Below are positions 1 to 24,778 of a stretch of DNA of 64,000 nt, in pieces. The position numbers and the translations under genes were made by a program. The notes under the pieces were generated by a model. That model was given only the letters and a program-made list of their open reading frames with translations. It had not been told where the DNA came from and did not search any database. Each line of letters begins with the position of its first letter. Within the stretch, counting starts at the first letter, position 1. This stretch comes from Streptomyces xiaopingdaonensis (GTDB lineage Bacteria; Actinomycetota; Actinomycetes; Streptomycetales; Streptomycetaceae), in assembly GCF_000262345.1 (NCBI RefSeq), contig NZ_AJTQ01000276.1, forward strand, positions 1 through 64,000, read 5' to 3'.

Positions 1-1656
1 GGCGGCGGACGCGTCCGCGACCGAGCGCAGCCCGGCGAGGAGTGCGGGCACCGTCTCTCCGACGGCCAGCGCCCGCTCGCTCAGCGGTGCGCGTCCGGTG
101 GCCAGCGCCTCCGCCACCTGCGCGGCGTCGGCAACCTCGCCCCGGCTCGCCACCGCGTCGGCCAGCCGCTCCGCCTGGGCCCGCAACCCGCCGGTGCCGC
201 GGCCCGACACCGGCCAGGGGACGGGGGACACCGAGGAGTCCCCTTCGGCGACCGCCGACGCGTCCGGCTCCCGAGGTGCCTCCTCCAGGATCACGTGCGC
301 GTTGGTTCCGCTCATGCCGAACGACGAGACGGCCGCGCGCCGCAGGCCGTCCGTCCGCCAGTCGCGTGGCTCGTCGAGGAGGCGGACGGCGCCCGAGGAC
401 CAGTCGACCTCGGGCGTCGGCGCGTCGACGTGGAGCGTGCGGGGCAGGACGCCGTGCCGCATCGCCAGCACCGTCTTGATCACGCCGGCGACCCCCGCCG
501 CCGCCTGGGCGTGGCCGAGGTTCGACTTCACCGAGCCGAGCCACAGCGGCCGGGCGCCGGGCCGGTCCTCGCCGTACGTCGCCAGCAGGGCGCGGGCCTC
601 GATGGGGTCGCCGAGACGTGTGCCCGTGCCGTGCGCCTCCACCGCGTCGACCTGGTCGGGCGTGAGGCCCGCGTCGGCCAAGGCGGCGCGGATCACCCGC
701 TGTTGGGCCGCGCCGCTCGGCGCGGTCAGCCCGTTGGAGGCTCCGTCCTGGTTGACCGCCGAGCCGCGTACCACCGCCAGCACCCGCTGCCCCGCTCGCC
801 CGGCGTCCGAGAGCCGCCGCACCAGCAGCATGCCGACGCCCTCGCCCATGCCGAACCCGTCGGCATCCTCGGCGAAGGCGCGGCAGCGGCCCGTCGGGGA
901 GAGTCCGCGCTGACGGCTGAACTCCACCAGCGCCCCCGGCACCGGAACGACGGTGGCGCCGCCGCAGAAGGCGAGGTCGCACTCGCCGCGGCGCAGCGCC
1001 TGGACGGCGAGGTGCAGGGAGACGAGGGACGAGGAGCACGCGGTGTCCACCGTCATCGCGGGGCCTTCGAGGCCGAGCAGGTAGGAGATCCGGCCCGAGG
1101 CCACGCTGGTCGAGGTGCCCGTGGCGAGGTAGCCCTCCACCTCGCTCGGGTCGTGTTCCGCGCCGACCCCGTAGTTCTGCGCGGCCGTGCCGACGAAGAC
1201 GCCCGTCCTGGTTCCGCGGAGCGAGCGCGGGTCGAGTCCGGCGTGCTCGGCCGCCTCCCAGGAGGTCTCCAGCAGCAGCCGCTGCTGCGGGTCCATCGCC
1301 GTGGCCTCCCGCGGGGAGATCCCGAAGAAGCCGGCGTCGAACGCGGTCGCGTCGCGGAGGAAGTAGCCGGAGCGGACGTAGCTGGTGCCCGGCCTGTCGG
1401 GGTCCGGATCGTAGAGCGCGTCGACGTCCCAGCCGCGGTCGGAGGGCAGCGGACCGATCGCGTCGCCTCCGCCGGCCACCAGCCCCCACAGGTCGCCGGG
1501 GGACGCGACACCGCCGGCGAAGCGGCAGCCGATGCCGACGAGGGCGATCGGTTCGCTCGCCGCCTCGAGCACCTCCTGGAGCCGGCGCCGGGTCCGCCGT
1601 AGATCGGTGGTGACCTTCTTGAGGTAGGTACGGAACTTCTCTTCGCTCTCGGACAT
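1..1656 (-). CDS. Type I modular polyketide synthase, N-terminal part (docking domain + ketosynthase)
   Basis: Partial gene; only the first 552 residues are in the window and the rest lies beyond base 1. Residues 1-34 form a charged helix ([15 protein letters not shown]...) typical of the class 1 docking peptide that receives a chain from an upstream PKS protein. The ketosynthase follows: catalytic Cys207 in DTACSSS, His342 in EAHGTGT and His382 in KSNLGH are all present, so it should be an active extending KS. Visible sequence ends in the KS-AT linker. The ATG at 1656 is preceded by AAGGAG. Because the protein begins with a KS and no loading domain, it is not the first PKS of the line; the loading module must be on another gene to the left. 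Family assignment is certain; product is unknown. Confidence 0.97.
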
Positions 1657-2997: not shown

Positions 2998-4209
2998 GTG
3001 TCGGAATCGCTGTCGGAAACACCAGGTCTGCCCCTCAGCCGCAGCTGCCCCCTCGACCCGCCCGACGGCTACAAGCGCCTCCGCGAAGAGGAACCCGTGA
3101 GCCGCGTACGGTTCGCCGACGGCAACGAGGGCTGGCTGCTCACCAGGTTCGACGACGTACGCGCCTTCCTCCTCGACACCCGGTTCAGCTCCAACCGGAA
3201 CCGCGCCGCACGCACCCGGCACACGCACGAGAAGCCGAAGTTGCCGGCCGGGGCGATGGTGAGCATGGACCCGCCCGAACACACGCGGTACCGCCGGCTG
3301 CTCGCCGGCCAGTTCACCGTGCGCAGGGTGCGGCAGCTCGAACCGAGGATCGTCGAGTACGTCAACGGGCAGCTCGACGAGATGGCGGCGGCAGGGCCCG
3401 GCGTCGACCTCGTGGAGACGTTCGCGCTGCCGGTGCCCTCCCTCGTGATCTGCGACCTCCTCGGGGTCCCGACCCGCGACCGCCACGACTTCCAGAAGTG
3501 GGCGCAGACCGTCCTCAACGTGGACCTGCCCCTGGACGAGGTCCACCGCGCGAAGGAGAAGCTCTTCGCCTTCATCACCGCCCTGGTGCACGAGAAGGCG
3601 GAAGACCCGCAGGACGACATCATCAGCGGCCTCCTCCACGCACCGCCCGAAGAGCGGCTGACGCGGGAGGAGATCATCGGGATCAGCGTCCTGCTGCTGA
3701 TCGCCGGGCACGAGTCGACCTCCAACATGCTCAGCATCGGCGCCTACGCGCTGCTCCGGCACCCGCGGGAGCTGGCCAAGCTCAAGGCGGACCCGTCCCT
3801 CATCGACAACGCGGTGGAGGAACTGCTGCGCTATCTCTCCATCGTGCACCTGGAGTTCATCCGCACGGCGACGGAAGAGGTCGACTTCGCCGGGCACCTC
3901 ATCAAGCCTGGAGAGACCGTCAAGGGATCGATGGTCTCGGCGAACCGGGACCCGGACCGCTATCCGGAGCCCGACGTACTCGACCTGAACCGGAAAGACG
4001 TGCACCACCTGACCTTCGGCCACGGAATCCACCAGTGCATCGCACAGCAGCTCGCCCGGGTCGAACTCCGCGTCTCCTTCAGTCTTCTGTTCGCCCGATT
4101 CCCCACGCTGCGCCCGGCGATCGCACCGGAGGACGTCCGTTTCAAGGACGACTCAGTGGCGTACGGCGTGAAGGAGCTCCCTGTGGCGTGGGACGTGAAG
4201 AAACCCTGA
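2998..4209 (+). CDS. Cytochrome P450 monooxygenase
   Basis: 403 residues, the normal length of bacterial CYP. The I-helix oxygen motif AGHEST is at 236-241, the K-helix ExxR is Glu275/Arg278, and the heme loop FGHGIHQC places the thiolate ligand at Cys347. Soluble, class I, needing a ferredoxin such as the 3Fe-4S protein encoded at 1871. Start GTG 2998 follows AAAGGGAGAAG; the longer open frame upstream is antisense to the NAD(P)-binding gene. Placed between PKS accessory genes, it most likely hydroxylates or epoxidises the polyketide. Resembles CYP105/107-type macrolide hydroxylases in general pattern; exact substrate cannot be read. Confidence 0.95.
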   Translation: MSESLSETPGLPLSRSCPLDPPDGYKRLREEEPVSRVRFADGNEGWLLTRFDDVRAFLLDTRFSSNRNRAARTRHTHEKPKLPAGAMVSMDPPEHTRYRRLLAGQFTVRRVRQLEPRIVEYVNGQLDEMAAAGPGVDLVETFALPVPSLVICDLLGVPTRDRHDFQKWAQTVLNVDLPLDEVHRAKEKLFAFITALVHEKAEDPQDDIISGLLHAPPEERLTREEIIGISVLLLIAGHESTSNMLSIGAYALLRHPRELAKLKADPSLIDNAVEELLRYLSIVHLEFIRTATEEVDFAGHLIKPGETVKGSMVSANRDPDRYPEPDVLDLNRKDVHHLTFGHGIHQCIAQQLARVELRVSFSLLFARFPTLRPAIAPEDVRFKDDSVAYGVKELPVAWDVKKP

Positions 4210-4346: not shown

Positions 4347-5612
4347 GTGCTCAACGCCTATCGCTCCCTTTTCGCTGTTCCCCACCTTCCCTCCCTCTTC
4401 GCCTGCTCCTTGATGAGCAGGCTGAGCGTGATGGCGTTGCCGATCGCCTCGACGGTGCTCCTCTCCCGCTGGACCGGCTCGTTCGGCCAGGTCGGGGTGG
4501 TCATCGGAGTGCAGGCCGTGGCCCAGGCGCTCTCGGCGCCGTACCGGGGGCGCGCGGCGGACCGCGGCTCGGTGCCCCGGCTGGTGATGCTCACAGGGCT
4601 CGGTTTCGCACTCGGCCTGGGCCTGCTCACCGCCCTCACGGTCTTCCTGCCGCCGGCCGGCTGGCCGCTCGCCGTGCTCGTCGCGGCCCTGACCGGGTGC
4701 AGCACCTCGCCGATCCCCCAAGTCAGCCGCGCGGCCTGGCCGTTGCTGGTGCGGGAGGACCAGCGGGCGAGCATCTACACGCTGGAGGCCGTGGGGCAGG
4801 ACGCCGTCGCGACCGTGGGCCCCTTGCTGGCGTCGCTGACGGCGGCGTACGACCCGGCGTGGTCGGTCGGCGTCTGTGCCCTGCTCGCCCTCTGCGGATC
4901 AGCGGTGTTCGCACTGGCGTACCGCCGCTCCGGCCTCGCCGGCGTACCGCTGCGGAGCACGGAGGAGGCGGAGACCGCCGCGGTCGGACGCAGGCGGCTG
5001 CTGCCGACGGAGCCGGGGCTGCTCTCCGTCCTCGTCGTCGCCATGTGCGTGATGGGTTCCGTCTTCACGATCAACCTCTCCGTGGTGGCGTACAGCACCG
5101 GCTCCGGGAGCGTCGGGCTCAGCGGGGTGCTCATCGCCGTCTGGACGGTCGGTTCGCTGGCGGGCGGGCTGGTGCTCGGCGCCACCACCCGGAGGGTGAA
5201 CCACACGGCACTGCTGCTGGCATTGGCGGCGGGCATGGCCGCCCTCGCCGCGGTGCTGCCCCCGGCCCGCGGGTCGACCCCCGTCGTCGTGGTCGCGCTG
5301 GTGCTCTTCGTCGGGGGCCTGGTGATCAGTCCGAACCTCGCCGCCAACAACACGCAGGTCGCCGACGCGGCCCCGGCTTCCCGCAGGACGGAAGCGTTCG
5401 GCTGGTTGCAGACGGCGACGACGGGCGGCTCCGCCGTCAGCATGATGCTCACCGGCGTGCTGCTGGACGCCGCTGGGCCCGCCGCGGCGATCGGCGCGGG
5501 CACGTGCCTGGTACTCGTCGCCCTCCTCGTGCGGTGCCTCTCCCGGCGGCGGACGCCGAGAGCTGCCGAGCCGGGCCACGAGGCACCGGGCGTCAGCCCT
5601 CAACCGGACTGA
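4347..5612 (+). CDS. MFS transporter, probable polyketide exporter
   Basis: 421 residues with about 12 hydrophobic segments and the MFS loop 2-3 pattern (YRGRAADRGSVPR, a degenerate GxxaDRxGrr). Cytoplasmic membrane. The start GTG 4347 follows GAGAAAG; the alternative frame from 4337 is a shadow. It reads MLNAYRSLFAVPHLPSLF, typical of Streptomyces MFS proteins found in antibiotic clusters. The gene ends 13 bp inside the 3' end of the convergent thioesterase gene. Its location between the P450 and the thioesterase suggests export of the cluster product and self-resistance; substrate is inferred from context only. Confidence 0.85.
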   Translation: MLNAYRSLFAVPHLPSLFACSLMSRLSVMALPIASTVLLSRWTGSFGQVGVVIGVQAVAQALSAPYRGRAADRGSVPRLVMLTGLGFALGLGLLTALTVFLPPAGWPLAVLVAALTGCSTSPIPQVSRAAWPLLVREDQRASIYTLEAVGQDAVATVGPLLASLTAAYDPAWSVGVCALLALCGSAVFALAYRRSGLAGVPLRSTEEAETAAVGRRRLLPTEPGLLSVLVVAMCVMGSVFTINLSVVAYSTGSGSVGLSGVLIAVWTVGSLAGGLVLGATTRRVNHTALLLALAAGMAALAAVLPPARGSTPVVVVALVLFVGGLVISPNLAANNTQVADAAPASRRTEAFGWLQTATTGGSAVSMMLTGVLLDAAGPAAAIGAGTCLVLVALLVRCLSRRRTPRAAEPGHEAPGVSPQPD

Positions 5613-6364
5613 GGGACGGCGGAGAGCCGCCGGGCGACGAAGGCGGCCACGTCCTCGACGCGTTCACTGAGGAAGAAGTGCCCGCCGGGAAAGAGCCGCA
5701 TGTCGAACTCGCCCGTCGTGTGCTCCCGCCAGGCCGCCGCCTCGTCCTCGTGCGTACGGGGGTCCGAGGTGCCGGAGAGGGCCGTGACCGGGCAGCCGAC
5801 CGGTGGTTCCGGTACGAAACGGTAGGACTGGAGCGCCTGGTAGTCGGCGCGCAGCGGTTGGAGGATCAGCTTGCGCATCTCCTCGTCGCCGAGTACCTGC
5901 GGATCGGTGCCGCTCAACTCCCGGACCTCGGAGAGCAGTCCGTCGTCACCGGTCAGGTCCACGTGCTCCGTCCTCGGGCAGGACGGAGCACGGCGCCCCG
6001 AGACGAAGAGGCGGACCGGTGAGGTACCCAGCTCCCGCTCGAAGCGGCGCGTCACCTCGTAGGCGAGGAGGGCGCCCATGCTGTGGCCGAGGAAGGCGAG
6101 AGGCCGCTCGGCCATCGTCCGCAACCGCGCGAAGACGAGGTCGGCGAGACGGTGCAGATCGGTCACACAGGGCTCGGTGTGCCGGTCCTGGCGGCCCGGG
6201 TACTGGAGCGCGCACACGTCGAGGCGGTCGCCGAGGGAGAGGCAGAACGGGCGGTAGTAGCTGGCCGAGCCACCCGCGTGGGGAAAGAGGACGAGCCGCG
6301 TCGCGCCCGGCGGCCCGGGCGAGCAGCGCTGAATCCAACGGTCGGACGTGTCTTTCGACTTCAC
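5600..6364 (-). CDS. Type II thioesterase (editing TE)
   Basis: 254 residues, alpha/beta hydrolase. Catalytic triad visible: Ser95 in GHSMG, Asp201 in SGTSDPR and His229 in GGHFFL. The LFPHAGGSASYYRPF block near the N-terminus is characteristic of free-standing thioesterases of PKS/NRPS clusters, which hydrolyse wrong or stalled acyl groups from carrier proteins. Start GTG 6364 was chosen because it is preceded by GGAAAGG and gives the family length; the open frame extends to 6511 without homology. Convergent with the MFS gene, overlapping by 13 bp. Confidence 0.95.
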   Translation of the reverse strand: MKSKDTSDRWIQRCSPGPPGATRLVLFPHAGGSASYYRPFCLSLGDRLDVCALQYPGRQDRHTEPCVTDLHRLADLVFARLRTMAERPLAFLGHSMGALLAYEVTRRFERELGTSPVRLFVSGRRAPSCPRTEHVDLTGDDGLLSEVRELSGTDPQVLGDEEMRKLILQPLRADYQALQSYRFVPEPPVGCPVTALSGTSDPRTHEDEAAAWREHTTGEFDMRLFPGGHFFLSERVEDVAAFVARRLSAVPQSG

Positions 6365-6853: not shown

Positions 6854-8212
6854 ATGCGGGAGATCGTCAGCGCTGCCCTGTCGGACGACGCGGACGGCGC
6901 GGCATTCGCCGCGCTGCCCGTCCCCGAGTCCTACCGGGGCGCCGTGATCCGCCGGGAGGACACGGGGATGTTCGAGGGGCTCGCGACGCGGGACAAGGCG
7001 CCGTCGAAATCCCTCCACGTCTGCGAGGTCCCCACCCCCGAGCCGGGTCCCGAGGAGGCTCTCGTCGCGGTGATGGCCAGCGCCGTCAACTACAACACCG
7101 TGTGGAGCTCCCTCTTCGAGCCGGTCCCCACCTTCACCTTCCTCGAGCGGTACGGACGTTCGGACGCCCCCCTGGCGGCCCGGCACGACCGGCCGTACCA
7201 CGTGCTCGGCTCGGACCTCGCCGGCGTCGTGCTGCGGACCGGTCCTGGCGTGCGGCGGTGGAAGCCGGGAGACCGGGTGGTGGCGCACTGCCTCTCCGTC
7301 GAACTGCGCTCCCCCGACGGGCACGACGACACCATGCTCGACCCGGAGCAGCGCATCTGGGGCTTCGAGACCAACTTCGGCGGCCTCGCCGAACTCTCCC
7401 TCGTCAAGGGCGATCAGCTCATGCCCATGCCGGCGCACCTCACCTGGGAGGAGGCCGCGGCCTCCGGCCTCGTCAACTCGACCGCCTACCGGCAGCTCGT
7501 ATCCCGCAACGGCGCCCGGATGAAGCAGGGGGACACCGTCCTCGTCTGGGGTGCCGCCGGCGGTCTGGGCTCGTACGCCACGCAGCTCGCCCTCAACGGG
7601 GGCGCCGTCCCTGTCTGCGTCGTGTCCGGGGAACACAAGGCCGAGTTGGTGCGCTCGCTGGGCGCCGGACTGGTGATCGACCGGCAGCAGGAGGGCTACC
7701 GGTTCTGGAAGGACGGGACGACGCCGGACCCCGGGGAGTGGAAGCGCTTCGGTGCGCACATCCGCCAACTGACGGGCGGCGACGACCCGGACATCGTCCT
7801 CGAGCACCCCGGCAGGGAGACCTTCGGGGCGAGCGTCTTCGTCACCCGCCGCGGCGGCACCGTGGTCACCTGCGCCTCCACCTCCGGCTACCGGCACGAG
7901 TACGACAACCGCTACCTGTGGATGTCCCTCAAGCGGATCGTCGGCAGCCACTTCGCCAACTACCGCGAGGCGTGGGAGGCGAACCGACTCGTCTCCAGGG
8001 GGATGGTCCACCCGACCCTGTCGGCCGTCTACCCGCTCTCCGCCGTGGGCCGGGCGACGGAGGACGTCCACCGGAACCGGCACGCCGGCAAGGTGGGCGT
8101 GCTGTGCCTGGCGCCGGGGGAAGGGCTCGGCGTCCGCGACGAACGGTTGCGGGAACGGCACCTTTCGGCGATCAACCGCTTCCGCACGGGCGCCGGGGCT
8201 CGGAGCGTCTGA
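6854..8212 (+). CDS. ccr: Crotonyl-CoA carboxylase/reductase
   Basis: 452 residues, medium-chain dehydrogenase superfamily. Reductively carboxylates an alpha,beta-unsaturated acyl-CoA with NADPH and CO2 to give an alkylmalonyl-CoA (ethylmalonyl-CoA from crotonyl-CoA) for PKS extension. The CO2-binding residues known from the family are present: Asn81, Phe171/Glu172 (in GFETNFGG) and His366 (in GSHFANY). NADP site GAAGGLGS at 233-240. Start ATG 6854 has a strong GGAGG eight bases upstream. It sits inside the PKS cluster, so it is the cluster's own extender-supply enzyme. Standard ethylmalonyl supply is the default reading; a longer unsaturated substrate cannot be excluded without alignment of pocket residues. 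Confidence 0.95.
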   Translation: MREIVSAALSDDADGAAFAALPVPESYRGAVIRREDTGMFEGLATRDKAPSKSLHVCEVPTPEPGPEEALVAVMASAVNYNTVWSSLFEPVPTFTFLERYGRSDAPLAARHDRPYHVLGSDLAGVVLRTGPGVRRWKPGDRVVAHCLSVELRSPDGHDDTMLDPEQRIWGFETNFGGLAELSLVKGDQLMPMPAHLTWEEAAASGLVNSTAYRQLVSRNGARMKQGDTVLVWGAAGGLGSYATQLALNGGAVPVCVVSGEHKAELVRSLGAGLVIDRQQEGYRFWKDGTTPDPGEWKRFGAHIRQLTGGDDPDIVLEHPGRETFGASVFVTRRGGTVVTCASTSGYRHEYDNRYLWMSLKRIVGSHFANYREAWEANRLVSRGMVHPTLSAVYPLSAVGRATEDVHRNRHAGKVGVLCLAPGEGLGVRDERLRERHLSAINRFRTGAGARSV

Positions 8213-8800: not shown

Positions 8801-11590
8801 GTGACACCGTCCGCTGAGCAGGTACTGCCGCCCCATGTGCTCATCCCGGGCTTCGAGAGCCGGCACGACGAGAGCGGCATCATTCTCGTCCGGGGGCCGA
8901 AGCGGTCGGGGAAGACCACCCTCCTCCACGCCGTCAACGAGTCGGCCGCCGAGTCCGGGGCGCGGGTTCTGAGCGTGACGGGCTGGCCGAGCGAGCAGCA
9001 GGTCGCCTTCGGCGTACTGCGCCAACTCCTGGGCCAGTTGGACGAGCCACCGAGCGCGGCCGCCGACCGGCAGGAACCCGCTGCGGTTCCCCCGGGACTC
9101 CTCACCGACCTCCAGGAGTGCACGTACCACCGGCTCGTCTCCGCCGACGCGACGCACCGGCTGCTCGTCTCGGTCGACGACATCAACTTCGTCGACCGCC
9201 CGACGCAAGGGTTCCTCCGCTTCCTCGCGCGGCGCCTCCAGGGAACGCGCATCAGGCTGGTCCTGAGCGAGCGGACCGGCCAAGCCTCCCCGCACTGCAC
9301 CGACTTCCGTACCGACCTCCTGCGCCTGCCGCACACGCGCCTCGTCCGGCTGAGCCTGCTGACGCGCGAGGCGCTGGCGAGCTGGATCGCCGAACGCGTC
9401 GCCCACGTCCGCGAACCCGCCGCACGGAGGGCCGCGCAGCGGATCGCCACCGAAGTGCACGACGTCGGCGGGGGCAACATTCCGCTCTCCGGGCTCCTCG
9501 TGGGGAAGTACCTGGCTTCGGTGGAGCAGGGCAGAAGCACGCTCACCGTCGACGCCGACTTCTACGACACCGTCCGCCTGCTGATCGACGGCAGCGACAC
9601 CCCGGGGTTCGGCCGGGGCGCCCGGGCGGTCGCGGTGCTCGGCCCGCTCTGCACCACCCAGCGGTTGAGCAGGCTGCTCGACGGCGACACGGGGCTCGCC
9701 GACCGGGTTCTCCGCACGCTCGGCGAACTCGGCATGACGCACGGGACGCGCTTGCGGCAGCACATAGCCAGGGCCCTGCTCGACGACCCGGACTTCACCG
9801 AAGCCGCTGACGTCCAACTCGCCGCGGCACGCGTCCTGTTCGACGACGGCGCACCGGTGCGCCACGTGGCGCGCAAGCTGGAGGCCGCGGGGAAGATCGG
9901 CCCGCCGTGGGACCTGCCGCTGGTGATGGAGGTCGTCGGCCGCGCCGTGGAAGAGGGCCGCGGCGAGGTGGCGGGCGCCCTCCTGCGGCTCGTCCAGGCG
10001 TCGGCGGTCACGACGGAGGAGCGCGCGGCGGCGGAGATGCTCCTGCTGCGCAGCGAATGGCTGACCAACCCGGTGCTGGTCTCCTCCCTGGTGCCCTCGC
10101 TGAGCGGTGCGGCGCGCCAGGGCGTGCTGCGGCCGGCCGACGCAGCACTCCTCGTCCGCGCGATGATGCTCCACGGATACCCGGACCGCGCCTGGGAGTT
10201 GCTCTCCGCGCTGCGCGAGGAGCCCCAGGGTCCGGAGGACGAGGTCGAGGTGACCCTGGCGGAGGTGCTCCACGGCGTCTGGCACGGCGTCCCGCCCCGC
10301 ACACCCCGCGGCGATCAGCACGGTTCCGGGGCACCGGCCGGCGCCGGCCGGTGCCTGGTGATCGGCAACCATTCGTGGCTGCCCACCGTCCTGCACAAGA
10401 TCCCCGATCTCCTCGACCAAGGGGACAGGGCCGGGGTCGTCTTCGCGGCCGAGCAGCTCCTCGAAGGCATCCGGATCAGGACCTCCGAGGTGGAGCCCTT
10501 CCTCTTCGCCTGCTGGGTGCTGGACGCCGTCAACTCCCTCCCGCTCGCCCGGAAATGGTGCACCTCGCTCTCCGCGGCGCTCGACGGCTTCCCTTCGCCG
10601 CTGTGGAGGTCCCTGCTCGCCGCCGTCCAGGCGCGGATCGCCCTGGCCCTGGGCGACCTCACCGGCACACGCCGCCACCTCCAGGAGGCGCTGGCGCACA
10701 AGCCTTGGCAGGAGTGGGGCTCGGGCGTCGGGTCGCTCGCCGCCGTCCTCGTCGAGGCGCTGACCGAGTCGGGGCGGTACGAGGAGGCGGCCGAGGTGCT
10801 GGACCGTCCCGTACCGCCCGCGGTCTTCCGCGGCGTGGGCGGACTGCTCTACGTACGCGCCCGCGGACGGCACCACCTTGCGGTCGGCCGACTCCACGCG
10901 GCCGTCGCCGACTTCGAGAACTGCCGCGACATGTCCGCGTACCTCGCCTCGGACCTGCCCGCGGTGGTGCCCTGGCGCTGCGACCTGGCCGAGGCGTACC
11001 TGCAGGTCGGCGACGTCGAGAGCGCCCGCGGACTCCTCCAGGAACAGCTCGGACTGCTCCCCGAGGAGGAGACGTCCGTCCAGGGCACGACGCTGCGCCT
11101 GCTCGCCAAGGCCGACGTGGAGGACCGGCGGGTCTCCCTCCTCAAGGCGTCCGCCGACCAGCTCGAGCGGTGCGGCAGCCGCCTCCAACACGCCTACACA
11201 CTCGTCGAGTTGGCGGCGGCCTACCGGGAGAGCGCGTGCCTGGGCCCCGCCCGTGCGACGATCAGGCGCGCCCAGCGCATGGCGCAGCAGTGCGACGCGG
11301 GCCGCCTCCAGCGACTCATCGCCGCCGGCACGGCAGCCGGTACCGCCCGCGACGACGTACCGCCCGCGTACGGCGGCGAGTTGGGCAAGCTCAGCTCGGC
11401 CGAGCGGCGCGTCGCCGTCCTGGCGATCCGGGGCCACACCAACCGGGAGATCTCCACGAGGCTCTTCATCACGCCCAGCACGGTCGAGCAGCACCTGACG
11501 CGGATCTACCGGAAGTTGCGGGTCCGGCACCGCCAGGACCTCGAGGACCGCTTCTCCTCGGTCTTCGAGGTGCTCGGCGCCCACGCCTGA
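8801..11590 (+). CDS. LAL-family (LuxR-type) pathway-specific regulator
   Basis: 929 residues. N-terminal ATPase module with Walker A GPKRSGKT at 32-39 and Walker B-like LLVSVDDINF; a long helical, TPR-like middle; and a C-terminal LuxR helix-turn-helix (LSSAERRVAVLAIRGHTNR...STVEQHLTRIYRKL). This is the MalT-like large ATP-binding LuxR layout common as activators of macrolide and polyene clusters. Start GTG 8801 was chosen for its GAGAGGAG ribosome site and because the family begins near the P-loop; the open frame runs back to 8474 without homology. Likely activates the PKS, TEII/CCR and starter-unit genes through the repeated AGGGG sites. Confidence 0.93.
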   Translation: MTPSAEQVLPPHVLIPGFESRHDESGIILVRGPKRSGKTTLLHAVNESAAESGARVLSVTGWPSEQQVAFGVLRQLLGQLDEPPSAAADRQEPAAVPPGLLTDLQECTYHRLVSADATHRLLVSVDDINFVDRPTQGFLRFLARRLQGTRIRLVLSERTGQASPHCTDFRTDLLRLPHTRLVRLSLLTREALASWIAERVAHVREPAARRAAQRIATEVHDVGGGNIPLSGLLVGKYLASVEQGRSTLTVDADFYDTVRLLIDGSDTPGFGRGARAVAVLGPLCTTQRLSRLLDGDTGLADRVLRTLGELGMTHGTRLRQHIARALLDDPDFTEAADVQLAAARVLFDDGAPVRHVARKLEAAGKIGPPWDLPLVMEVVGRAVEEGRGEVAGALLRLVQASAVTTEERAAAEMLLLRSEWLTNPVLVSSLVPSLSGAARQGVLRPADAALLVRAMMLHGYPDRAWELLSALREEPQGPEDEVEVTLAEVLHGVWHGVPPRTPRGDQHGSGAPAGAGRCLVIGNHSWLPTVLHKIPDLLDQGDRAGVVFAAEQLLEGIRIRTSEVEPFLFACWVLDAVNSLPLARKWCTSLSAALDGFPSPLWRSLLAAVQARIALALGDLTGTRRHLQEALAHKPWQEWGSGVGSLAAVLVEALTESGRYEEAAEVLDRPVPPAVFRGVGGLLYVRARGRHHLAVGRLHAAVADFENCRDMSAYLASDLPAVVPWRCDLAEAYLQVGDVESARGLLQEQLGLLPEEETSVQGTTLRLLAKADVEDRRVSLLKASADQLERCGSRLQHAYTLVELAAAYRESACLGPARATIRRAQRMAQQCDAGRLQRLIAAGTAAGTARDDVPPAYGGELGKLSSAERRVAVLAIRGHTNREISTRLFITPSTVEQHLTRIYRKLRVRHRQDLEDRFSSVFEVLGAHA

Positions 11591-11594
11591 GCCG

Positions 11595-11617
11595 GCCGGG
11601 CCCTCACCGGGCCCGGC
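11595..11617. terminator. Bidirectional hairpin between LAL and starter-unit gene
   Basis: Perfect 9-bp stem GCCGGGCCC / GGGCCCGGC with a 5-base loop, just after the LAL stop and before the convergent fusion gene. Confidence 0.65.
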
Positions 11618-11727
11618 GCGGCGCCCCCTTTGCGGGGCGGCGTCAACTCGTGCGCCGCCGGGTCAGGTCTACCGCCCCGAACGGGGAACGACCGGGGCAG
11701 CGCTCGCGGCGCCCCACGCGCTCCGGG

Positions 11728-14706
11728 TCACGCCCCGTCCCCGTCCTGCGGGCGCAGCTCCCTTGCCTTCTCCCGCAGGACGAACTTGCGCACTTTCCCC
11801 ACCGGGTTGCGGGGCAGCACCGCGAGGTGTTCGAGCCGCTCCGGCCAGTACTGCTTCGCGACCTGGTGCGCGTCCAGGTGGCGGCGCATGTCGGCGAAGG
11901 TGAACCGCGCGCCGCCCGCCGGCACGACGAACGCGCAAGCGCGCTCGCCGAGGCGGTCGTCCGGCATCGCGACGACCGCCACGTCCGCGACCGAGGGGTG
12001 GGCGAAGAGCAGTTGCTCCACCTCGGCGACCGGGACCTTCTCTCCGCCGCGGTTGATCACGTCCTTCTCCCGCCCGGTGATCCGCACGAAGCCCGCCTCG
12101 TCGAGCACGGCGAGATCCCCGGTGCGGTACCAGCCGTCCGGCGTGAACGCCTCCGCCGTCAGGTCGGGGCGGCCGAGGTAGCCGTCGAAGACGGTCGGCG
12201 AGCTCAGTTCGAAGTTGCCCTCGCATCCCGGCGGTAGGACGTTCCCCCGGTCGTCCGCGACGCGCAGGCGGACACCGTCCAGTGCGCGCCCGTCGGTGCC
12301 CCGGCGCTGTGCGGGCGGGTCGGCAGGTGCGGAGAGCGCGGCGAGACAGGTCTCGGTGGTGCCGAAGGCGCCGCAGACCTTCGCGCCGAGGACCCGGTCG
12401 GCCCGCTCGGCGAGGGCGCGCGGCACGGTCGCACCCGTGGCTACGAAGATCCGCAGATGGCGCGGGGGTTCGCCGCCCTCCTCGACCGCCCGCAGCAGGT
12501 CGGCGAGGAAGGGCGTCGCGGCCTGGACGAAGGTCGCCCGGTGGTCGTTGAGCGACGCGAGGGCGCGCTCCGCGTCCCACTCGGCCTGGAGGATCTGCGG
12601 CACTCCGAGCACGGTGGCCAGCACCATCCCGTAGAGGAACCCCGTCTGGTGGGCGAGCGGCGACGGCACCCAGACGGTGTCCCTCTCGCCGAGGCCGAGG
12701 TGCGCGACCTCCATGGTCACGGCCTTCACCAAGGTCGCCGACGTCTGCGTCACGCCCTTGGGCTCGCCGGTCGTACCCGAGGTGAAGAGGAGCTGGGCCG
12801 CCGCACCCGCCTCGGGCCCGACGGCGTCGAGCGCCGCGCGGTCCGCCTCCGTCGCCGCCGGGGCCGCCGCCCAGTCGTGGACGGTGACGCCGTCGGCCGA
12901 GCTCTGCGGGAGCCGGCTCCGGCCGCCCGAGCGGGGCACCACCACGACGTGGCGCAGCCGCCCCGGCGCCTCCTGGTGGGCCGCGAGAGCGAGTGCCTCG
13001 TCCGCGGGGCTGCGGGAGCGGTGCCGGTCGACGACGACCAGCACGCGCGCCGCCGACCTGCGCAGCACGAAGCCGAGTTCGCGTTCCCTGAAGAACGGCA
13101 TGACGGGGCAGCAGACCGCGCCGATCCGCAGCGTCGCGAGGGAGAGCACCACGAACTCGGAGCGGTTCGGCAGTTGGTAGACGACGTGCTCGCCCGGGCG
13201 CACCCCCAGCCGCAGCAGCAGCGAGGCCGCCCGGTCGACCCGCTCCGCGAGCGACCGCCAGGTGATCACGTGCCGGCCGTCCTCGGCGACGTCCACGACA
13301 GCCGGCGCACCCGGCCGGGCCGCGGCATGCCGGGCCAGCCACTGGGGCAGCGTCGTCCGGGCGGCGGCGTCCGGGCGCCCCGTCCCGCGGCGGGGCCGCC
13401 CGGCAGGGCCGTCCGCCACCGTCATGGGCACGCCCACGGCGTTCATCGCGGTGAGGAAACCCGGGTAAGAGATGCGGTACGCGTGGGGAAAGGTGAGGGC
13501 GGAGCGGCCCTGCGCCCGCGAGGCCGCCACGGCCAGCGACATCAGGACCCGGTGGTCGTTGTAGGTGGAGAGCCCCGCGCCTGCGAGCCCTTCGACACCG
13601 TTCACCCGCAGCACGTCGCCGGTGAGCGCCAGGTCGCCGCCCATGGAGTTGAGCTGGAGGACCGCCGCCGCACGGTCGGACTCCTTGAGCCGGGTGTGCC
13701 CGACGTTCCGGAAGACGGACTCGCCCTGCGCGAAGGTACCGAGCACCGAGAGGATCGGCAGCATGTCGGGGACGTCGCCGCAGTCGACGTCGACGGCCTT
13801 GAGCAGCGGTGCGTCCTGCCTGATGCGGACGCCCCCGGCCGCCGCCTCCATCGGTACGCCCATGGCCCGTGCGACGTCGAGGAAGTGGAACTCGGGGTGG
13901 TCGGCGGGTCCGCCCTCCAGGCCGGTGAGGCCGCGGAGCAGGACGTCGGAGGGGTGGAGCGCGGCCGCGGCGATGCCGAAGGCGGCCGAGCCGACGTCGG
14001 GCGGCAGCGTCAATTCCGTCGGCCGCGCCTTCTGGCCCGGGGGCAGCGTGAAGCGCCGCCAGTCCGGCGAGACGGTCACCTCCAGGCCGAACCGCCGCAT
14101 CATCGCCACGGTCAGCTCCAGGTAGGTGCGCTCGTTGAGCTCCCCCTCCACCTCGACGACCGTGGGTCCCGCGGCGAACGGCGCGAGCAGCAGCACGCCG
14201 GAGACCCACTGCGACAGGGTCCCGGGAAGGGTCACCCTCCCCCCGGCCGGCCGTCCGGCGCGGATGTGGACAGGAGGGCAGTCGTCGGTCGCTCGGAGCG
14301 CGACGCCCAGTCGCTCCAGCGCCCGCAGCAGCGGGCCCACGGGACGGCGCCTGAAGTACCGCTGTCCCGTGAGCGAGACGTCCCGGTCCGAGAGGGAGGC
14401 GAGCCCGGCCATGAAGTAAAGGGTGGTGCCCGAGCTGCCGGCCGAGAGCGTGGCCCGCCTCGGCCGGTACCGTCCGCCGAGGCCCCGTACCAGGAACGTG
14501 TCGCCGCTCCTGGTGATCGGCACACCGAGCCCGCGGAGCAGCCGCACGGTGTAGTCGACGTGGCGCGCGTCGGTGAGCCCGTGGATGCGGCTTTCGCCGT
14601 CCGCGAGGGAGGCGAGGACCAGCGCCCGGTGCGCGTGGTATTTCGAGTGCGGCACGAGGATTTCACCGGTCACCCGATGCTGGATTCCGTCGACGAGAAG
14701 ATGCAT
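11728..14706 (-). CDS. EPSP-synthase-like / acyl-CoA ligase fusion (CHC-type starter unit enzyme, PlmJK-like)
   Basis: 992 residues, two domains. Residues 1-430 are an enolpyruvyl-transferase (AroA/EPSPS) fold: Lys22 and Arg27 in PHSKYHAHR, the GTT loop near 93, the RRRPVG arginines near 120, SQ at 165-166, DVPD near 311, KESDR at 341-345 and NDHR at 383-386. The residue at the usual catalytic Lys411 place is not Lys (AYRISYPGF), and Asn94 and Arg100 equivalents are Ser and Tyr. Residues 455-985 are an adenylate-forming ligase: FTSGTTGEPKG at 641-651, GWYRTGDL, GREKDVINRGGEK and NPVGK; it is closest in pattern to cyclohexanecarboxylate-CoA ligases (QLPNRSEFVVL, PFFRERELGF). Shikimate-derived cyclohexanecarboxylate pathways use homologues of both; from memory the phoslactomycin locus has a fused counterpart. 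Predicted role: dehydration and CoA activation of a shikimate-derived starter. Start ATG 14706 follows AGGAG. Confidence 0.9.
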   Translation of the reverse strand: MHLLVDGIQHRVTGEILVPHSKYHAHRALVLASLADGESRIHGLTDARHVDYTVRLLRGLGVPITRSGDTFLVRGLGGRYRPRRATLSAGSSGTTLYFMAGLASLSDRDVSLTGQRYFRRRPVGPLLRALERLGVALRATDDCPPVHIRAGRPAGGRVTLPGTLSQWVSGVLLLAPFAAGPTVVEVEGELNERTYLELTVAMMRRFGLEVTVSPDWRRFTLPPGQKARPTELTLPPDVGSAAFGIAAAALHPSDVLLRGLTGLEGGPADHPEFHFLDVARAMGVPMEAAAGGVRIRQDAPLLKAVDVDCGDVPDMLPILSVLGTFAQGESVFRNVGHTRLKESDRAAAVLQLNSMGGDLALTGDVLRVNGVEGLAGAGLSTYNDHRVLMSLAVAASRAQGRSALTFPHAYRISYPGFLTAMNAVGVPMTVADGPAGRPRRGTGRPDAAARTTLPQWLARHAAARPGAPAVVDVAEDGRHVITWRSLAERVDRAASLLLRLGVRPGEHVVYQLPNRSEFVVLSLATLRIGAVCCPVMPFFRERELGFVLRRSAARVLVVVDRHRSRSPADEALALAAHQEAPGRLRHVVVVPRSGGRSRLPQSSADGVTVHDWAAAPAATEADRAALDAVGPEAGAAAQLLFTSGTTGEPKGVTQTSATLVKAVTMEVAHLGLGERDTVWVPSPLAHQTGFLYGMVLATVLGVPQILQAEWDAERALASLNDHRATFVQAATPFLADLLRAVEEGGEPPRHLRIFVATGATVPRALAERADRVLGAKVCGAFGTTETCLAALSAPADPPAQRRGTDGRALDGVRLRVADDRGNVLPPGCEGNFELSSPTVFDGYLGRPDLTAEAFTPDGWYRTGDLAVLDEAGFVRITGREKDVINRGGEKVPVAEVEQLLFAHPSVADVAVVAMPDDRLGERACAFVVPAGGARFTFADMRRHLDAHQVAKQYWPERLEHLAVLPRNPVGKVRKFVLREKARELRPQDGDGA

Positions 14707-15676: not shown

Positions 15677-15750
<74 letters not shown>

Positions 15751-15757
15751 CACTGGT

Positions 15758-19042: not shown

Positions 19043-20020
19043 TCACGCGGCGTGCCGCTCCTGTCCCGTGCCGCCGAGCGCGTCGACGAGCTGCTCCCGC
19101 GTCATCTTCGAACGCCCCTGTACGTCCTCCTCGGTCGCCCGCCGGTACAGCTCGTCCTTGCTGAGGCCGGAGAGATCCGTGCGCTGCGAGCGCCGTCCAC
19201 CTTTCCGCCCGCGCCCGGAGCGCCCGGACCCGGCGCCGTCCTTGCCCTTCGCCTGGTCGAGGCTGCGTTGCAGGTCGGCCGTGAGGTCGACGACGTTGCT
19301 CGCCTGCGGAGCCTTCTCCTCGACGACGAACTCCTCGCCTTTCCGCTTCGCCTCGACCAGCTCCCCGACGCGTTCGGCGTAGGTGTCCCGGTAGTCCTCG
19401 GGCCGCCAGGGGACGGCCAGCGCGTCGACGAGCTGCTCCGCGGTCTGCAACTCCTTGCCCTTGTCGGCCCTGCGCTTCGGCAGAGCGGGCAACTCCTGCG
19501 CCGGGTCGCGCACTTCGTCGGCCCAGTGGAGCGTCTGGAGGACCAGTACGTCGTCCTGCGGGCGGAGCGCCACGAGGTACTCCTTGCTGCGCATCACGAA
19601 GGTGGCGATGCCCATCCGCGAGGTGTCGGCGAGCGCGGAGCGGAGCAACTCGTAGACCTTCGCGTACTGTTCGCCCTTGGGCGCGAGATAGTAGGTGCGG
19701 TCGAAGTAGACGGGAGCCACCTCGTCGACGCCGACGAACCCGCTGATCTCGATCGCCTTCGACTTGCGCGGCGCGATCTCGTCGAGCTCCTTCGGCTCGA
19801 CGACGACGTACTCGCCGTCCGCGTCGTACCCCTTGACGATGTCCCGGTAGTCGACGTCCTTCCCGGTGCGCTCGTTGACGCGCCGCTGCCGGACCCGGTC
19901 GCCGCTCCCGCGCGTCAACTGGCGGAACGGGATCGTGTGGCTGTCGGTCGCGGTGAAGAGCTGCACGGGCACGGTGACCAGCCCGAAGGTGACGACACCG
20001 CTCCAGATCGGGCGCGCCAT
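19043..20020 (-). CDS. ku: Ku protein, non-homologous end joining
   Basis: 325 residues, bacterial Ku homodimer that encircles DNA ends and recruits LigD. The core (MARPIWSGVVTFGLVTVPV...FDRTYYLAP...MGIATFVMR...VLVLQTLHWADEVR) spans about 1-255. The C-terminal 70 residues are lysine/arginine-rich and end in a SAP/HeH-like helix pair (SKDELYRRATEEDV...MTREQLVDAL), as in longer actinobacterial Ku proteins that bind internal DNA. Start ATG 20020; the gene is transcribed away from the Rieske gene. The LigD-type ligase at 23771 is the likely partner. Confidence 0.97.
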   Translation of the reverse strand: MARPIWSGVVTFGLVTVPVQLFTATDSHTIPFRQLTRGSGDRVRQRRVNERTGKDVDYRDIVKGYDADGEYVVVEPKELDEIAPRKSKAIEISGFVGVDEVAPVYFDRTYYLAPKGEQYAKVYELLRSALADTSRMGIATFVMRSKEYLVALRPQDDVLVLQTLHWADEVRDPAQELPALPKRRADKGKELQTAEQLVDALAVPWRPEDYRDTYAERVGELVEAKRKGEEFVVEEKAPQASNVVDLTADLQRSLDQAKGKDGAGSGRSGRGRKGGRRSQRTDLSGLSKDELYRRATEEDVQGRSKMTREQLVDALGGTGQERHAA

Positions 20021-23770: not shown

Positions 23771-24778
23771 ATGAGCGGACTGCTGGAGACGCTGCCCGAG
23801 GAGGAACGCCGGCTGCTGCGCGAGGCCCCGCCGGGCGAGCGCCTCGCGGCCGAGCCGATGCGCGCGCAGCTCAGCGACCGGCGCGAGTTCGACGACGCAT
23901 GGCTCTTCGAGCGGAAACTCGACGGGGTGCGCCTGCTCGCCGTCCGCGACTCCGGCCGCGTCCGCCTCCTGTCGCGGACGGGGAAGCGGCTCGACGAGAC
24001 GTACCCGGAGGTGCTGGAGGCGCTCCAGGCGCAGGAGTGCGCGGACTTCACCGTCGACGGCGAGGTGGTCGCCTTCTCGCACGGGCGCACCGACTTCTCC
24101 CGGCTCCAGCAGCGGATGCAGCTCACCCGCGCCTGGCAGGCGCGCACCAGCGGCGTCGCCGTCACCTACTTCCTCTTCGACCTGCTGCGGCTCGACGGCG
24201 CCGACCTGACGCAACTCCCGCTGCGCACCCGCAAGTCCCTGCTGCGCCGCGCCCTCGACTTCGACTCCCCGCTCCGCTTCACCACGCACCGCAACACCGC
24301 GTGTCTGCGGGAGGCGTGCGACCGCGGCTGGGAGGGGCTGATCGCCAAGCGGGCAGACGGCCGCTACCTCGGGAGGCGCTCCTCGGACTGGCTGAAGCTC
24401 AAGTGCGAGCGGGGACAGGAGACGGTCGTCGGCGGCTTCACCGAACCGGCCGGGAGCCGCTCCGGCTTCGGCGCGCTGCTCGTCGGCTACTACGAGGGCA
24501 CAAAGTTGCGGTACGCGGGCAAGGTCGGCACCGGGTACAGCGACCGCGTCCTGCGCGAGCTGCGCGCCCGGCTCGACGCGCTGGAGCGCGCCCGCTCGCC
24601 CTTCGCGGACCCGGTACGGGAGCGCGGGGTGCACTGGGTGCGCCCCGAACTCGTCGCACAGGTCGGGTTCACCGAGTGGACGAGGGACGGATTCCTGCGC
24701 CACCCGCGGTACTTGGGGCTGCGCGACGACAAACGGCCGCGGGACGTGGTGCGCGAGCAGCCGGACGGGCAGGCGTAG
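23771..24778 (+). CDS. ATP-dependent DNA ligase, LigD ligase-domain type
   Basis: 335 residues, the size of a free-standing LigD ligase module (adenylation plus OB-fold). Motif I FERKLDGVR puts the AMP-accepting lysine at Lys49 with Asp51-Gly52 and Arg54; motif III is TYFLFDLL, motif IV EGLIAKR and motif V DWLKLKC. No polymerase or 3'-phosphoesterase domain is attached, so those are encoded elsewhere or absent. Seals ends held by Ku in non-homologous end joining. ATG 23771 has GGAGGCGAG upstream; the longer open frame from 23606 lacks homology. Confidence 0.94.
   Translation: MSGLLETLPEEERRLLREAPPGERLAAEPMRAQLSDRREFDDAWLFERKLDGVRLLAVRDSGRVRLLSRTGKRLDETYPEVLEALQAQECADFTVDGEVVAFSHGRTDFSRLQQRMQLTRAWQARTSGVAVTYFLFDLLRLDGADLTQLPLRTRKSLLRRALDFDSPLRFTTHRNTACLREACDRGWEGLIAKRADGRYLGRRSSDWLKLKCERGQETVVGGFTEPAGSRSGFGALLVGYYEGTKLRYAGKVGTGYSDRVLRELRARLDALERARSPFADPVRERGVHWVRPELVAQVGFTEWTRDGFLRHPRYLGLRDDKRPRDVVREQPDGQA

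Follow-up and report, generated by a model that had tools for sequence, protein, structure and literature searches.

An orphan PlmJK-type fusion gene in a phoslactomycin-like cluster of Streptomyces xiaopingdaonensis, with a starter pathway probably completed by a distant cassette

How does a polyketide synthase (PKS) cluster obtain a cyclohexanecarboxyl (CHC) starter unit, when the gene expected to open the shikimate-derived pathway is found beside it without those expected to complete it? The question is raised by a stretch of 64,000 nucleotides from Streptomyces xiaopingdaonensis (contig NZ_AJTQ01000276.1, positions 1 to 64,000), here called the window, which contains a gene encoding a 5-enolpyruvylshikimate-3-phosphate synthase (EPSPS)-like domain fused to an acyl-CoA ligase. 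The comparisons described below make it reasonably likely that this gene is orthologous to PlmJK and belongs to a phoslactomycin-like PKS cluster, which has lost its own plmL-chcA-plmM segment by deletion and has the starter finished in trans. A previous sequence-only reading of the window had described one frame of 992 residues, combining an AroA fold with an adenylate-forming ligase; open reading frame (ORF) and Pfam analysis confirmed it, and assigned it to the minus strand, which had not been specified. The features on which the argument turns are the following.

11728..14706, minus strand: orphan PlmJK-type fusion gene, EPSPS-like domain plus acyl-CoA ligase (ORF, Pfam, NCBIfam, tree orthology)
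13450..14682, minus strand: EPSPS-fold domain, residues 9-419, with altered substrate site (PF00275, E 1.4e-75; active-site columns; Foldseek)
12175..13335, minus strand: AMP-binding domain, residues 458-844 (PF00501, E 4.1e-71)
11794..12024, minus strand: AMP-binding_C domain, residues 895-971, with K971 (PF13193, E 9e-12)
11591..11727, no strand: gap of 137 bp between the convergent fusion and regulator genes, the place of plmL-chcA-plmM in phoslactomycin-type loci (locus comparison)
8837..11590, plus strand: LuxR-family regulator with ATPase domain (Pfam; start uncertain, frame open from 8474)

The fusion frame is uninterrupted, starts at an ATG, and shows GC fractions of 0.77, 0.52 and 0.93 at the three codon positions, as expected for coding DNA in the window. 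Its N-terminal half reached 305.7 bits against the NCBIfam aroA model TIGR01356, above the cut-off of 287.25; the best NCBIfam match of the ligase half was TIGR03208, cyclohexanecarboxylate-CoA ligase, with 470.9 bits, below the cut-off of 792.3. The ligase-domain lysine K971 is invariant across 20 aligned fusions. An AlphaFold model of the protein (mean pLDDT 78.4, pTM 0.46) was used for folds; when its EPSPS-like domain was submitted to Foldseek, a TM-score of 0.89 (target-normalised) to the EPSPS structure 5xwb was obtained.

Related genes were sought in one genome per species by using six exact peptide patterns from the window protein, a scan which distant relatives may escape. Full-length fusions turned up at 30 loci in 28 further genomes, all from Streptomyces except two Micromonosporaceae, and once more in the window genome, so that a chance joining or an assembly artefact is excluded. 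When the genus was sampled evenly, the fusion was present at E 1e-150 in 3 of 121 genomes, the window genome counted, and no match was obtained in plasmid records at E 1e-100. Of the 30 loci, 27 include PlmL and ChcA homologues, and 25 of those 27 PlmM as well. The gene order of loci L024 (S. kronopolitis) and L035, fusion-PlmL-ChcA-PlmM-regulator, equals the plmJK-plmL-ChcA-plmM-plmR1 order given in the gene list of PMC5852498.

In the tree, the fusions of the window, S. sulphureus DSM 40104 (L027) and S. albus NRRL B-1811 (L017) form one clade (support 100/97), sister to the phoslactomycin-type fusions of L024, L035 and L036 (100/99). The window gene thus resembles PlmJK, PnP1 and LmP1, listed for the phoslactomycin, leustroducsin and lactomycin clusters (PMC5852498), in its position, in being fused as in the phoslactomycin-type loci compared, and in its place in the tree. 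By these sequence relationships it is a PlmJK orthologue, hence a known type of gene, and the fusion itself is not new. The phoslactomycin version had been given as fused in the sequence-only reading; this agrees with the published list and with the fused orthologues in phoslactomycin-type clusters. In the same list plmJK is annotated as 'AMP-dependent synthetase and ligase', and the EPSPS half goes unmentioned.

What distinguishes the window, S. sulphureus and S. albus fusions from the PlmJK systems is that plmL, chcA and plmM do not adjoin them. In phoslactomycin-type loci fusion and regulator are convergent, with L, ChcA and M in between (L036 without M). The S. albus gap between the two genes measures 914 bp and contains, at the expected place and on the expected strand, a relic of the plmM 3' end (L017:13064-13392), which is frameshifted, is spread over two frames and corresponds to PlmM residues 577-686 of 692. 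The longer piece of the relic shares 61% identity with the M of L035, 60% with that of L024, 59% with its Actinoplanes (L023) counterpart and 46% with the M of the S. albus resident cassette. Since it is nearest to phoslactomycin-type plmM, the relic is no copy of the resident gene, and it indicates that the plmL-chcA-plmM segment was once present beside the orphan fusion and was then deleted. A fourth candidate orphan, in Streptomyces sp. 8L (L022), was rejected: its PlmL and M are found at the start of another contig, which was taken as an assembly break.

The S. sulphureus cluster, syntenic with the window, includes six PKS genes, a cytochrome P450, a major facilitator superfamily (MFS) transporter, a type II thioesterase (TEII), a crotonyl-CoA carboxylase/reductase (CCR), the regulator and the fusion. 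A ChcA-type reductase and an acyl-CoA dehydrogenase had been expected on the left of the fusion; they are not there in this cluster, and no close homologue of PlmL, ChcA or PlmM was found in 180 kb of scaffold around the orphan. A cassette concealed on the left of the PKS was also considered and rejected, as the 180 kb yielded only an acyl-CoA dehydrogenase at 34-36% identity and short-chain dehydrogenase/reductase (SDR) stretches at 26% and 29%, and no match to PlmM at E 1e-3. In S. albus the contig begins within the PKS, and the left-side absence in this genome is taken solely from whole-genome searches.

The missing functions are encoded elsewhere. The second full-length fusion of the window genome, 68% identical to the first, lies on contig C179 (locus L009) and is followed by an acyl-CoA dehydrogenase, an SDR and a flavoenzyme of the old yellow enzyme type, the last interrupted by the contig end. 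The best scores of the acyl-CoA dehydrogenase homologue (acryloyl-CoA reductase) and of the SDR (enoyl-ACP reductase FabL) are both below the cut-offs; these family scores fit reductive roles. When ChcA (E 1e-50) and PlmL (E 1e-60) of L024 were used as queries, exactly one place each was found in each of eight genomes searched, and in the window genome, S. sulphureus and S. albus this single place is the distant cassette. PlmM of L024 finds the cassette copy at 62-65% identity in the same three genomes; a 44% paralogue is also present in the window genome and S. sulphureus, with counterparts (41-42%) in two other genomes.

Among the matches listed, the two-fusion genomes within the 29 carriers (28 plus the window genome) are exactly the three with an orphan, the 26 others having one fusion each (3/3 versus 0/26; Fisher p 2.7e-4, not to be read as a probability, the lineages not being independent). 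For these counts a part of the first-look candidates was scored, from a listing sorted by E-value with the full-length matches all at its top, and the two matches each in L016 and L028, adjoining pieces of one gene, were taken as a single fusion per genome. The two S. sulphureus fusions lie on the same scaffold, separated by about 490 kb. As the two-fusion genomes hold their only close chcA and plmL homologues in the distant cassette, CHC-CoA is probably completed in trans by this resident cassette. The claim of the sequence-only reading that the cluster builds a shikimate-derived carbocyclic starter must be amended in this sense: the PlmJK-type fusion for CHC-CoA is in place, but the cluster would not do it alone, the close ChcA and PlmL homologues being on another contig.

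The resident cassettes have relatives of their own. Their fusions form a separate clade of the tree (support 100/100), which includes the second fusion of the window genome, and the same four genes recur in the FabF-bearing cassettes of L025, L026, L028, L030, L034 and L039. In S. sulphureus and S. albus a FabF gene comes after the resident cassette; L009 ends at the contig end. No modular-PKS ketosynthase was found in the FabF-bearing loci. In the asukamycin producer, omega-cyclohexyl fatty acids are named as a second sink for CHC-CoA in a review (PMC4147253), and the resident cassette may have a role in such fatty acids.

The rest of the cluster is consistent with a CHC starter. The following features of the window accompany the fusion and the regulator; genes were called with an in-house procedure, which gives approximate starts and which overlooked an epimerase-like stretch in S. 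sulphureus recovered by tblastn.

1..1656, minus strand: docking domain and ketosynthase of a type I modular PKS running on to the left of the window (Pfam; syntenic S. sulphureus PKS genes)
3097..4209, start approximate, plus strand: cytochrome P450 (Pfam)
4410..5612, start approximate, plus strand: MFS transporter (Pfam)
5600..6364, start approximate, minus strand: TEII (Pfam Thioesterase)
6854..8212, plus strand: CCR, for ethylmalonyl-CoA supply (TIGR01751, 582.9 bits, cut-off 378.55)
15677-15751: tRNA-Pro (GGG), about 1 kb beyond the outer end of the fusion

The window shows just the right-hand part of a phoslactomycin-type cluster, and its PKS was interpreted through the syntenic S. sulphureus relative. 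Reference was the S. kronopolitis contig around L024, a phoslactomycin-type cluster with cassette and PKS genes present. The window shares with such clusters the regulator (52% identical to the one adjoining plmM in L024, in the plmR1 position), the CCR (83% to the S. kronopolitis homologue), TEII, P450 and a PKS whose loading module, as seen in S. sulphureus, matches. Over its length, SUL_076, a PKS gene of S. sulphureus, shares 63% identity with the first S. kronopolitis PKS gene; the loading acyltransferases (ATs) are 69% identical and have the same unusual motifs, compared with 52% identity between the module-1 ATs. In vitro, cyclohexanecarboxyl-CoA primes the phoslactomycin PKS (PMC9730843). 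The starter is, on these resemblances, probably still CHC, and the PKS loading part agrees with the carbocyclic starter foreseen in the sequence-only reading.

The hallmarks of the phoslactomycin type found in S. sulphureus are six PKS genes with an AT-acyl carrier protein loading part, CCR, TEII, a phosphotransferase and the regulator. Apart from cassette and PKS, the S. kronopolitis cluster follows the order of the published list with genes for a 3-hydroxyacyl-CoA-dehydrogenase-like protein, CCR, APH-type phosphotransferase, P450, MFS transporter, an NAD-binding epimerase-like protein and an aminotransferase. Between the two clusters the phosphotransferase (Pfam APH, kinase position) is 44% identical, the epimerase-like stretch 45% and the P450 36%; tblastn over the 180 kb of S. 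sulphureus scaffold gave no match at E 1e-3 for the S. kronopolitis aminotransferase (T1), T8 dehydrogenase and transporter. We infer as expected product a phosphorylated phoslactomycin relative without the amino group.

The pathway that can be proposed from these data begins on the fusion protein. Loss of water from shikimate is reported in older work as the first step of the pathway. The EPSPS-fold domain would dehydrate unphosphorylated shikimate to a dihydroxycyclohexadiene carboxylate, and the ligase domain would form the CoA thioester; the remaining reductions would be carried out in trans by the single PlmL, ChcA and PlmM set of the unlinked resident cassette (C179 in the window genome), and the resulting CHC-CoA would prime the PKS loading module. 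The fusion would have been kept in the cluster probably because the committed step is thus under the cluster's own LuxR-type regulator.

In order to evaluate the first step, 32 fusions were aligned with nine AroA controls, taken from eight fusion-carrying actinobacterial genomes, and with E. coli AroA, of which S169 and S197 are taken here to bind the 3-phosphate and K411 to be the phosphoenolpyruvate (PEP) lysine. All 32 fusions show S23Y, N94S, R100Y, R120Y, S169L, S197E and K411I. The domain shares the fold of E. coli AroA and 5xwb and differs from them at S23, N94, R100, S169, S197 and K411. By contrast, R100, S169, S197 and K411 are kept in 9/9 controls, N94 and R120 in 7/9, and S23 in all six comparable ones (for K22, S23 and R27 the comparison covers 6 or 7 of the nine, two or three controls having been N-terminally shortened by the gene caller). 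A HMMER alignment to the AroA of 3nvs placed a gap at S169, hence likewise no serine. The E. coli residues K22, R27, R124, S170, Q171, D313, K340, E341, R344, H385 and R386 are retained in 32/32 fusions, and the window protein agrees with the others at every listed column that is otherwise invariant among them. In the alignment, the 3-phosphate pocket is altered and an acid is gained. With both 3-phosphate serines changed and isoleucine at K411, the domain is unlikely to be an EPSP synthase. We infer instead a shikimate dehydratase, acting on the unphosphorylated substrate and expelling its 3-hydroxyl, for which E192 of the window protein, at the S197 position, would be the candidate acid.

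Several observations weigh against the proposed scheme. On the enzymatic side, the residues facing PEP in EPSPS are mostly retained (K22, R124, Q171, D313, E341, R344, R386), the arginine beside the lost K411 is invariant in 32/32 fusions, and the fusions match E. coli at D313 and K340, where 8/9 actinobacterial controls have E and H; the domain could, by these residues, still use PEP or another anion. On the genomic side, the three orphan genomes represent at most two independent lineages, their orphans being one clade, and both association and deletion may reflect a single event. The window genome is a draft of 384 contigs, 98.44% complete, and its resident cassette ends at a contig end. Some S. 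sulphureus module ATs are unlike the phoslactomycin type, so that the product differs; their motifs hint at other extender units in those modules. Finally, the orphan is under weaker constraint, with a ratio of non-synonymous to synonymous substitution (dN/dS) of 0.19 between window and S. sulphureus, against 0.08 for the resident fusion, and may possibly be redundant.

Redundancy would mean that the orphan is on its way out, the resident cassette supplying all CHC-CoA. The presence of two full fusions in one genome and the loss of the adjoining cassette genes speak for it, together with the higher dN/dS; still, this ratio is well below 1, the orphan frame is intact in all three genomes, and the window copy conforms at the active-site columns, which makes redundancy unlikely. 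Alternatively, the orphan could make the final starter, the PKS being primed with a less reduced ring, such as dihydroxycyclohexadiene carboxyl-CoA, and the reductases being unneeded. Their absence beside the fusion would suit this, but the plmM relic shows that reductive genes were once present and lost, the genome still has a reductive set, and the loading AT remains near that of the PKS primed with cyclohexanecarboxyl-CoA in vitro (PMC9730843); a starter of this kind is more doubtful still. It is highly improbable that the N-terminal half is an ordinary EPSPS, a housekeeping or resistance copy joined to an unrelated ligase: although the aroA cut-off is passed by 11/11 fusions of eight genomes, the window genome has a separate AroA (356 bits, contig C150), the four residues kept in all controls and in E. 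coli are changed in all fusions, and the fusion lies beside L and ChcA in 27/30 loci.

The scheme of a PlmJK orthologue finished in trans is therefore retained. Its most comprehensive form, in which an EPSPS fold now dehydrates free shikimate instead of transferring enolpyruvyl, the S197-position glutamate serving as acid, and in which the PKS cluster relies on a resident cassette for finishing the starter while keeping the committed step under its own control, can be advanced as a tentative proposal, somewhat short of even chances.

With the tRNA-Pro and ordinary genes to its right (e.g. ferritin-like, Ku, ATP-dependent DNA ligase), the fusion seems to sit at the cluster edge. A tRNA-Pro is also found at the S. 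sulphureus locus and none in the stretch around the S. albus orphan; it is a possible, putative insertion site of the cluster. Just beyond the cluster, Ku (19043-20020, minus strand) lies near the DNA ligase (23771-24778), perhaps as an end-joining repair pair. At the other end, an Rfam ASpks match (antisense small RNA; positions 526-600, 65.6 bits, above the gathering score) lies inside the ketosynthase gene, and may reflect merely conserved coding sequence.

Some variation was observed among the other loci. The most divergent fusion (Streptomyces sp. G-G2, L029; 59-60% identity, long branch) is adjoined by PlmL, ChcA and a divergent M (51%). In S. ardesiacus (L032) and S. pacificus (L036), fusion, PlmL and ChcA occur without PlmM in the locus, and a search of their genomes at E 1e-80 gives only a 42-43% paralogue, the like of which other genomes carry as well; PlmM may be dispensable or replaced there. 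Seven loci (L010, L012, L013, L014, L015, L019, L033) have FabF and a second, stand-alone CoA ligase after the cassette. Clusters with 3-amino-5-hydroxybenzoate (AHBA)-type genes (L011, L016, L020, L031, L037, L038), called ansatrienin-like here by gene content, have the same order of fusion, L, ChcA and M, and differ from the window in belonging to another clade, in their core genes and in being complete. The fusion is one gene in all six of them; ansJ and ansK of the ansatrienin cluster are reportedly separate genes.

In the literature searched, subscription papers lying outside that search, 'plmJK' occurs in PMC5852498 alone, and no paper on the fusion active site or on a split cassette was evident from titles and abstract openings. 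The CoA ligase of PMC10295569, as presented there, is a different one, for fed CHC. For S. sulphureus DSM 40104, 27 gene clusters are reported and a different one is described in PMC10268602, the main text of which contains neither 'phoslactomycin' nor 'cyclohex'.

The altered site provides named residues, on the fold of a herbicide target, by which the opening step of the shikimate-to-cyclohexane pathway can be tested. It also calls for caution, as a curated aroA model labels these domains EPSP synthase despite their differing substrate site. Predictions made from the cluster only would overlook the rest of the starter pathway. For these Streptomyces, the orphan fusions exemplify how a biosynthetic cluster can lose starter-pathway genes, with a molecular relic as witness, where the genome retains another copy.

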